NCBI GenBank assembly: GCA_944389975.1
Contig: CALXOH010000050.1
Location: 1 to 57,304, forward strand
DNA length: 57,304 nucleotides
Direction of reading: 5' to 3'
DNA from: an uncultured Spirochaetaceae bacterium
GTDB lineage: Bacteria; Spirochaetota; Spirochaetia; Sphaerochaetales; Sphaerochaetaceae
Shown here: piece by piece, positions 29,583 to 32,153 of the stretch
Layout: the number at the start of each line of letters is the position of its first letter
How positions within the stretch are numbered: the stretch's first letter is position 1
Program-made: the position numbers and the translations under genes
The notes under the pieces: generated by a model
The model's input: only the letters and a program-made list of their open reading frames with translations
Database searches by the model: none
What the model was told of the DNA's origin: nothing

Positions 29583-29589
29583 ATCGGCA

Positions 29590-30540
29590 TCATAGCGCAT
29601 AGATGTCTTTTCCGCTTATCCTCCGATCACCTTCTTTTTCAAATCCAGAGGAGGATACGAATCCTATCTCTTTGACGTTGAGGCCGCTCAAGTGCAGGAT
29701 CTTCTCTTTTTCCTTCTCGACAAGGGTTTCCGGCATGGGGGCTTCCAGGAATTTGACTTCGTATATTTCATAGCCGTCCAAAGTTTCGATTGCGACATCG
29801 AATTCCCCGTTCTTCTTGTTTTCCCGATCGTTGTACCAGTATGTTCCGACGGTGACTATTTCGCTATTCTCTGAACGTTCCGACAGGATCGAGAAATAAT
29901 CACGTACCATCGCTTCAAAGCGATAAGAGATGAATGTATTCAGTGAAGGCCTTACATATTTCAGGAAGAATGCCTTGCTCGATGTATCTACCGAGAATCG
30001 TTCCAGGTAAGTCAGATAGAACCTGAGTAGGTTGATTTTGATCTCGTAGAAAGTCTTCTTCCTGTTTCCCTGTTCATTTATTGGTTGACGTTTGATCAGA
30101 ACCCCGGAGGAGATCAGATTCTTCAGAGCTTTTGCCAGTCCGTCACGTGCGGTTTTGCTATCAATCATAGATTCGATCTCTCCGAAAGTCCTACTCCCGT
30201 TCCCGATGCGTATTACAGCTGCATACGTTGCCGATTGTGCAGCCGTCTCATCCCTCAGGACATCCTCGATATATAGGCGTGCAAGACCATCTCCTGCCAT
30301 TACAAGATTTCGTATGTTCTCTTCTATGGACAGGGTTGCATCGATTGCCGAGAGGATCATGGGGATGCCTCCGAAGACTGCGTAGAGACTGATTTTTTCC
30401 CTTATGTTTCTCTCCGGGTAGAACAAGGCAGCCTCAAGATAATCCAATTTCCCGATATACATTTCCATCGAAAATCGTTTGTATAGGGGATTGGATATGT
30501 CCATCAGAGATTTCATCACCCTTATTGCTGATCCGCAGAT
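29590..30540 (-). pseudogene. 5'-truncated ATPase_2/DUF234 gene
   Basis: The frame resembles the C-terminal two-thirds of archaeal-type ATPases (ATPase_2 plus DUF234): PLYKRFSMEMYIGKL, the GGIPMIL region and the nuclease-like C-terminus GEFDVAIET...YEVKFLE. Homology extends upstream of the first start codon (30519) as ICGSAIRVMKSLMD to base 30540, and then stops exactly where a repeat cluster begins. The Walker A and B part is absent. In the same frame the repeat reads HEKAN immediately before ICGS, and a stop lies a few codons further. It is therefore broken by the event that brought in the repeats. Confidence 0.75.
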
Positions 30541-30542
30541 AT

Positions 30543-30622
30543 TTGCTTTTTCGTGCAGATTAGGAACTTTTTAACTTGCTTTTTCGTGCATTTTTGGGAG
30601 TTCTGAACTTGCTTTTTCGTGA
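30543..30622. repeat. Left repeat cluster, three 33-base-spaced units
   Basis: TTGCTTTTTCGTG occurs at 30543, 30576 and 30609, exactly 33 bases apart. The last 46 bases (30577-30622) are identical to 32040-32085 on the other side of the complete ATPase gene. Confidence 0.9.
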
Positions 30623-30630
30623 TCAAGGCT

Positions 30631-30647
30631 ACACAATCAGATTGTGT
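30631..30647. promoter_or_regulatory. Inverted repeat before ATPase gene
   Basis: ACACAAT-CAG-ATTGTGT is a perfect seven-base inverted repeat 37 bases before the ATPase start. It may be an operator or a small hairpin. Confidence 0.35.
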
Positions 30648-30683
30648 TGTGCTTGTCGCATCGAAGAATTGAAGGATGAATGA

Positions 30684-32024
30684 ATGTTACGAAGAAAGAT
30701 TTACGATGAACTTCTTGCTTGGAAGAAATACAGTAACGGTTCATCTGCCATGATGATTGATGGGGCTCGAAGGGTAGGCAAGAGTTTCATCGCAGAGGAA
30801 TTTGCAAAAGCCGAGTATAGAAGCCACATATTGATTGATTTCGGTCGTGTCTCGAAAGAGGTGCTTGACCTCTTTGTCAATGATGGTGTTGATCTTGATC
30901 TGTTTTTCGCAAAGCTGTCAGCTTTCTTTTCGACGGTTTTGTATCGGCGTGAATCTTTGATCATTTTCGATGAAGTCCAACAATTTCCGCTGGCTCGGCA
31001 AATGATAAAATACCTTGTTGCGGATGGCCGGTACGATTATCTGGAGACAGGATCCTTGATCCGTCTGAAAAAGAACGTTCAAGACATCATTATTCCATCC
31101 GAAGAGGAACATATCGATATGTTCCCCATGGACTTTGAGGAGTTCCTATGGGCAATGGGGGATGAGGCAACTTACCCTTTGATCAAAAATTGTTTTGAAG
31201 CAAAGAAACCTCTTGGCGCTGCCTTGCATAGGAAGATCATGAATGATTTCCGTCAGTATATTCTCGTAGGAGGCATGCCCCAGGCAGTCATTGCATATTT
31301 GGATGGGAAGAATTTCGAGGCTGCTGATTTTGCAAAACGAAGGATTTTGCGACTGTATCACGAAGATGTCGCCAAATTTGCCGAAGGGTATGAAGACAAG
31401 GTGTTCTCCGTATTTGACGGTATCCCCAGTCAGCTCTCGAGAAAAGAGAAGAAGTATAAGCTCTCTTCCCTTGGCAAGCAGGCACGATTCAGGAATTACG
31501 AAGATTCATTCGTTTGGTTGAATGAAGCGATGATAGTGAATACGTGTTTCAATGCTACGGATCCTCATGTAGGGCTTGCAGCAAGTGCCGACAATGCTAC
31601 AGCGAAGTATTACATGGCAGATACCGGGTTGCTTGTAACCCAGACATTCCAAGATAAGAAATTCACGGATAACGAGCTTTATCGGGCGATCCTTTTCGAT
31701 AAGTTGAACATCAACGAAGGAATGTTGATGGAAAACATCGTCGCACAAATGCTTCGTCTCAAAAGCCCTCGACTGTATTTCTATTCCCGCTCTGACAACC
31801 TTCATAGGGAAAACAACATGGAGATAGATTTTCTGATTCTGGATGGAAAGAAAATAGCTCCGGTGGAGGTGAAATCAGGAAACTACCGTCAACATTCCTC
31901 TTTGGATAAGTTTCGAAGACATTTTTCATCTGTCATTGGAAGTTCGTATATCCTCTACTCAAAAGATGTAATGATCAAGGATGACATCATTCATCTGCCA
32001 TTGTATATGGCGGAACTATTATGA
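30684..32024 (+). CDS. AAA ATPase with DUF4143 nuclease-like domain
   Basis: This is a complete 446-residue protein: Walker A GARRVGKS near residue 27, Walker B LIIFDEVQ near 92, the sensor region, and a DUF4143 C-terminus with the PD-(D/E)XK core MEIDFLILDG...PVEVKSG. The family is widespread in gut bacteria, often as isolated genes, and its function is unknown; a link to mobile elements or defence has been suggested by distribution only. Here the gene sits alone between an identical 46-base direct repeat (30577-30622 and 32040-32085). It is of the same general family as the remnant at 25-522. Confidence 0.85.
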   Translation: MLRRKIYDELLAWKKYSNGSSAMMIDGARRVGKSFIAEEFAKAEYRSHILIDFGRVSKEVLDLFVNDGVDLDLFFAKLSAFFSTVLYRRESLIIFDEVQQFPLARQMIKYLVADGRYDYLETGSLIRLKKNVQDIIIPSEEEHIDMFPMDFEEFLWAMGDEATYPLIKNCFEAKKPLGAALHRKIMNDFRQYILVGGMPQAVIAYLDGKNFEAADFAKRRILRLYHEDVAKFAEGYEDKVFSVFDGIPSQLSRKEKKYKLSSLGKQARFRNYEDSFVWLNEAMIVNTCFNATDPHVGLAASADNATAKYYMADTGLLVTQTFQDKKFTDNELYRAILFDKLNINEGMLMENIVAQMLRLKSPRLYFYSRSDNLHRENNMEIDFLILDGKKIAPVEVKSGNYRQHSSLDKFRRHFSSVIGSSYILYSKDVMIKDDIIHLPLYMAELL

Positions 32025-32039
32025 TTTTGTGTCACTACC

Positions 32040-32085
32040 TGCTTTTTCGTGCATTTTTGGGAGTTCTGAACTTGCTTTTTCGTGA
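32040..32085. repeat. Right copy of 46-base direct repeat
   Basis: It is identical to 30577-30622 and contains two of the 33-base-spaced units. Recombination between the copies would remove exactly 1463 bases including the ATPase gene. Confidence 0.9.
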
Positions 32086-32105
32086 AAGTAGGTATTTTGA
32101 GAGAG

Positions 32106-32130
32106 AAAAACAGGGTTCGGCAGAACCCTG
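32106..32130 (-). terminator. Terminator of rpiB
   Basis: On the minus strand the perfect stem CAGGGTTC/GAACCCTG (32111-32118 with 32123-32130) is followed by five T and then CTCTC. Confidence 0.9.
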
Positions 32131-32153
32131 CTTCGTTTTGAAATAGATCTTTT

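Follow-up and report, generated by a model that had tools for sequence, protein, structure and literature searches.

Within a 57,304-nt stretch of DNA from an uncultured Spirochaetaceae bacterium (the window), a complete ATPase gene stands between two clusters of one short direct repeat, next to a second ATPase gene that has lost its start. Do these repeats mark the ends of a small cassette, as a sequence-only reading of this DNA had first proposed, or do they serve the gene that they surround? We find that the left cluster is the ATPase's own promoter array, not one end of a cassette. The explanation that we favor, with a probability of roughly 0.7, is a promoter-operator array phased to the DNA helix, with the ATPase itself as its most likely binder.

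The repeats and the ATPase gene between them

The left array (30543..30621, + strand) consists of three copies of the 13-mer TTGCTTTTTCGTG, at 30543-30555, 30576-30588 and 30609-30621, and the right array (32039..32084, + strand) of two units, CTGCTTTTTCGTG at 32039, which matches at 12 of 13 positions (one mismatch), and TTGCTTTTTCGTG at 32072. The spacing is 33 nt throughout, and positions 30577-30622 and 32040-32085, 1463 nt apart, are identical at 46 of 46 positions, so that the earlier description (three units on the left and two on the right, 33-base intervals, 46 identical bases) is accurate apart from the one imperfect right-hand unit. The exact 13-mer does not occur again in the 1.95-Mb assembly. 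A CRISPR-like array was ruled out by the presence of only two or three units, the promoter position, the lack of a cas gene among the neighbors examined and the lack of an Rfam match.

The gene (30684..32024, + strand) encodes a 446-residue AAA_14/DUF4143 ATPase-nuclease, with Pfam scores of 1.1e-19 for AAA_14 and 1.7e-24 for DUF4143. Like the PDC-S01 proteins, which are single-gene candidates for phage defense, it combines an ATPase with a PD-(D/E)XK-type domain, and it matches the PADLOC PDC-S01 profile over its full length (1.1e-103, residues 1-445). Its membership in PDC-S01 is borne out by intact Walker A and B motifs in the AAA_14 domain (residues 22-155, 30747..31148, + strand), where G27, G32, K33, D96 and E97 are invariant in 56 relatives, and by the DUF4143 PD-(D/E)XK-type residues E350, D382, E395 and K397 (31731..31874, + strand), of which E350 and K397 are invariant and D382 and E395 at least 90% conserved.

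The AlphaFold2 model of the protein (pLDDT 90.9) matches the archaeal STAND-type ATPases 2qen (Z 16.4) and 2fna (Z 14.9), shows further likeness to CED-4/NLR proteins and to ORC/Cdc6 on DNA, and includes, at the C terminus, a PD-(D/E)XK-type domain with conserved key residues. Judging from the order of helices and two strands in the model, and from the 2qen and 2fna matches, which span to about residue 322, residues 237-311 (31392..31616, + strand) probably form a winged helix and are the putative DNA-binding part. Proteins of this structural type plausibly bind phased DNA sites, and the window ATPase would bind its own array. A sliding-window test for co-variation between protein and repeat core did not single out the winged helix as the co-varying part.

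The source genome shows a strong local expansion of such genes: 21 DUF4143 genes pass the Pfam cut-off in its 1.95 Mb. PDC-S01 and PDC-S27 are both described as fusions of an ATPase and a PD-(D/E)XK-type domain; PDC-S01 is reported to be the fourth most common predicted defense across prokaryotes, and most PDCs are reported to await validation (PMC12988326). In rumen genomes PDC-S01 is reported to be the most frequent single defense locus (PMC13356809). In the open-access literature on DUF4143, PDC-S01 and 33-bp repeats with AAA ATPases, we found no description of phased promoter arrays at PDC-S01/DUF4143 genes.

The left array overlaps the promoter

Among 63 relatives with the window's array type (the A clade, with core TTGCTTTTTCGTG), the consensus upstream of the gene is TTGCTT-17-TATAAT, in which the -35 box is the last array unit, and in 41 of the 63 a TATAAT -10 box stands at the exact offset given by TTGCTT and a 17-nt spacer. 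This consensus points to a core promoter at 30609..30637 (+ strand) in the window, with the -35 box TTGCTT (30609-30614) inside the last unit, followed by 17 nt and the -10 box CACAAT (30632-30637), a weak one with which the window copy fails a consensus promoter scan. Six close orthologs carry a three-unit array at about the same distance from the ATG. Because the last unit is the -35 box across relatives, the left array belongs to the ATPase. Good support for the overlap of array and promoter is limited to the A clade; in the other clades the support is weak.

Arrays across the family

Spaced pairs of the core were found in 11 of 139 genomes of the order, all of them 33 nt apart among the pairs listed, and at 103 places in 85k species genomes, nearly all at 33 nt. 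A family ATPase lies directly downstream on the same strand at 63 of the 103 places, and inspection added one at 7 more, where starts overlap or contigs end, in agreement with the earlier proposal that the repeat belongs to ATPase genes. The answer to whether it always borders them is mixed, as about 29 of the places carry an array only. Three pattern matches (L059, L069 and L084) lie in coding regions and were judged to be false positives.

For a test set of 67 family genes without the A core upstream, chosen by protein homology and with no use of the 33-nt repeat, we looked for upstream periodicity at any spacing from 18 to 60 nt. Arrays with a 32-34 nt spacing, mostly of three or four units, precede 53 of these genes; counted by spacing, 33 nt was found in 32 genes, 34 nt in 19 and 32 nt in 10, with all others at 3 or fewer, and controls inside genes and in shuffled sequence gave near zero. 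Between distant clades the cores are unrelated (for example CCTTGAAAACGTG, TGCGTATTAT, TCTAGGATTGTG, TCGCGGAT and ATTATTCCCCTAGA), and for arrays in unrelated sequences the core positions hold near 2 bits, with most spacer positions well below 1. These arrays thus have the direct repeats, constant helical spacing, conserved core and free spacer of a phased operator or iteron array. An array with no function, arisen by chance or by neutral duplication in tandem, is very improbable given this fixed spacing (33 or 23 nt, see below) and these conserved cores and free spacers in unrelated sequences; for the left array it is already contradicted, and the right copy taken alone may well be such a by-product.

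Array and ATPase have diverged together. A common core was found for 78% of gene pairs above 70% protein identity and for at most 1% of pairs below 50%, and the spacing class changes 17 times on the protein tree, against 49 in shuffles, so that spacing class follows the protein tree and core similarity follows protein identity. Among plasmid or phage-contig relatives with 24-51% identity, 17 of 20 have 32-34 nt arrays with cores of their own; the plasmids belong to six other phyla (Bacteroidota, Bacillota, Actinomycetota, Fusobacteriota, Pseudomonadota and Chlamydiota). Promoter arrays bound by regulators acting in trans are common, and a separate host regulator or nucleoid protein might bind the array, with the ATPase gene merely its target. 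We consider this quite unlikely, because each ATPase clade has a different core and a single genome can contain several of them. Across seven phyla, moreover, array and gene remain together, and the close orthologs have no neighboring gene in common.

Binding by the ATPase would fit these patterns, and with each clade having its own core, paralogs within one genome would not cross-talk. The DUF234 genes of the relatives scanned have no 33-nt array (the sole match was the window's own A array), and the array is therefore not general to ATPase genes. Nor is it found at all DUF4143 genes: in the window's genome, 5 of the 20 scanned have 33-nt arrays, 4 have 23-nt arrays and the rest neither. A search for phage-borne decoy arrays gave a single match on a viral contig, within a long open frame and with no ATPase gene alongside, which is probably due to chance. 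The promoters of DUF234/PDC-S27 genes (L297-L324) have a different signature, in which short repeats or palindromes surround the -10 box (for example TTACCAACAAAATTGTTGGCAAC and AATTCATTGAAATTGAGTTCAATGA).

A sister DUF4143 subfamily, first noticed in the window's genome, has a spacing of 23-24 nt in 44 of 46 genes (23 nt in 36, 24 nt in 8). Its four loci in the source genome (L275, L276, L279 and L280) carry 23-nt arrays in the promoter region, with the cores AAACATAGCC, AAATTTCTCCC, GAGAATCTAAAGGC and TAAATCTATAGGA. The step from one spacing class to the other is 10 bp, equal to a single helical turn.

A predicted binding site for the ATPase

Arrays of iterons or operators bound by initiators or STAND regulators are well known, among them the archaeal ORC/Cdc6 boxes, DnaA boxes and MalT boxes. 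The arrays described here resemble them in their short direct repeats, helical phasing and promoter overlap and in the presence of a winged-helix AAA+/STAND-like protein; they differ in that each protein subfamily keeps a constant spacing (33 or 23) but has cores that change by clade, and in that the presumed binder carries a nuclease-type domain. In the window, three units 33 bp apart, or about three turns of B-DNA, would place ATPase protomers on nearly one face of the DNA, with the STAND/ORC-like ATPase making contact through its winged helix. Since the last unit covers the -35 box, the protein would control its own transcription. The identity of the binder, the sign of the regulation and a role in defense are points that we infer. 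The suggestion that the repeats are binding sites, only a second thought in the sequence-only reading, is the better of its two readings, with the units as predicted sites.

With a clade-specific array of fixed geometry before most of the genes examined, a cognate DNA site can be predicted for each protein, through which binding, oligomerization and regulation become testable at once for the PDC-S01 candidates. The array could also be used for recognizing or pairing PDC-S01-type genes.

The insertion and the broken neighbor

The flanking genes, for an outer-membrane-like protein and rpiB, are convergent neighbors in 27 of 47 relatives from the genus, with only 2-30 nt between them, and the 2.57 kb that separates them in the window (29583..32153) is therefore an insertion. 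In the closest relative (G067) the same spot holds 14.5 kb of other genes, with no ATPase recognized there. Within the insertion, a remnant of a DUF234 ATPase (PDC-S27; 29590..30540, - strand) lacks the N-terminal P-loop part: it matches the PDC-S27 profile only from position 144 of 474, and the closest relative of full length extends about 150 residues further at the N terminus, a stretch that includes Walker A and B. An N-terminal part has indeed been lost, although nearer to one third than to the half first claimed. As had been noted, the left array adjoins the break, with its first unit beginning 2 nt past the last homologous base of the remnant. The broken gene would have entered this insertion spot earlier and independently.

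The six close orthologs (80-86% identity) lie in unrelated neighborhoods and have the three-unit left array only; the 46-nt direct repeat of the window, considered as a possible target-site duplication, is absent from all six. Among the seven, homology drops to chance level beyond the first unit, where identity is 27%, and past the stop codon, where it is 24%, so array plus gene, about 1.5 kb, is the unit that is transferred horizontally, with no transposase and no right-hand repeat. The sole gene in this unit is that for the AAA_14/DUF4143 protein, with no transposase or recombinase, and the earlier idea of a mobile unit lacking a transposase thus holds. Like direct-repeat cassettes and MITE/IS-like units, it is short and sharp-edged, occurs in unrelated loci and has no partner genes; unlike these, it has no transposase, is flanked by repeats on either side in exceptional copies alone and has no terminal inverted repeats, as no inverted pair joining the two edges was found.

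As a general rule, bracketing finds no support: only 5 of 114 complete family genes have even a single same-type unit within 250 nt downstream. The right array is therefore an orphan duplicate, and a recent one, since the identity with left units 2 and 3 extends into the 20-nt spacer, a normally variable part. With no -10 box behind it, it is a promoterless copy of those two units. At one other place (L112, identical with L152), positions 7-54 past the stop codon of an A-type ATPase hold two units of a different array type, GATCGCTATAAAAACGTGC, at 33-nt spacing.

Loci with arrays on both sides or arrays alone

That the arrays act as attachment sites, through which the gene is gained or lost by recombination, either homologous or assisted by a protein, with array-only scars left behind, is in our judgment unlikely. 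Besides the window, there are two loci with copies of one array on both sides: L026/L081, with B-A-A-A on the left and B-A-A on the right, and L022, with four B units on the left and B-B-A-A on the right. At one chromosomal locus, beside a conserved dGTPase-like gene, the state differs among related species: L046 and L048 have an array only, L022 and L081 are bracketed, and L028 and L051 have the left array alone. The array-only places, which imply that arrays can persist without a gene, mostly have two units and no -10 box (27 lack one), as do the right copies. Against such a cassette stand the rarity of downstream units, the lack of any shared sequence past the stop codon among orthologs and a unit that holds no recombinase. 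Because array-only and bracketed states occur at one locus, recombination through the arrays is possible, as is excision between the two arrays of the window, and it is a live secondary idea rather than the general mechanism; of the cassette first proposed, this much stands, while its left end is the gene's own promoter array.

A more elaborate scheme, which we hold to be speculative and improbable, would make the array both operator and self-recognition site: the ATPase would oligomerize along it and the nuclease domain would move or restore the 1.5-kb unit in a homing-like, transposase-free manner, leaving array-only scars, and the same protein-DNA filament would come in two sizes, the 33- and 23-bp classes, that differ by one helical turn.

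Some array-only loci are found repeatedly in the same settings, beside MazF-like and integrase-like genes (L033, L035, L036 and L077; L031, L053, L054 and L117), and thus seem to travel with larger mobile elements. Composite arrays, in which the cores of two ATPase types (GGCGCAAACGTG and TTGCTTTTTCGTG) share one 33-nt register, are present at L022, L026/L081, L046, L048 and L086, where they stand 3' of a multi-copy lipoprotein-like gene family, near a dGTPase-like gene.
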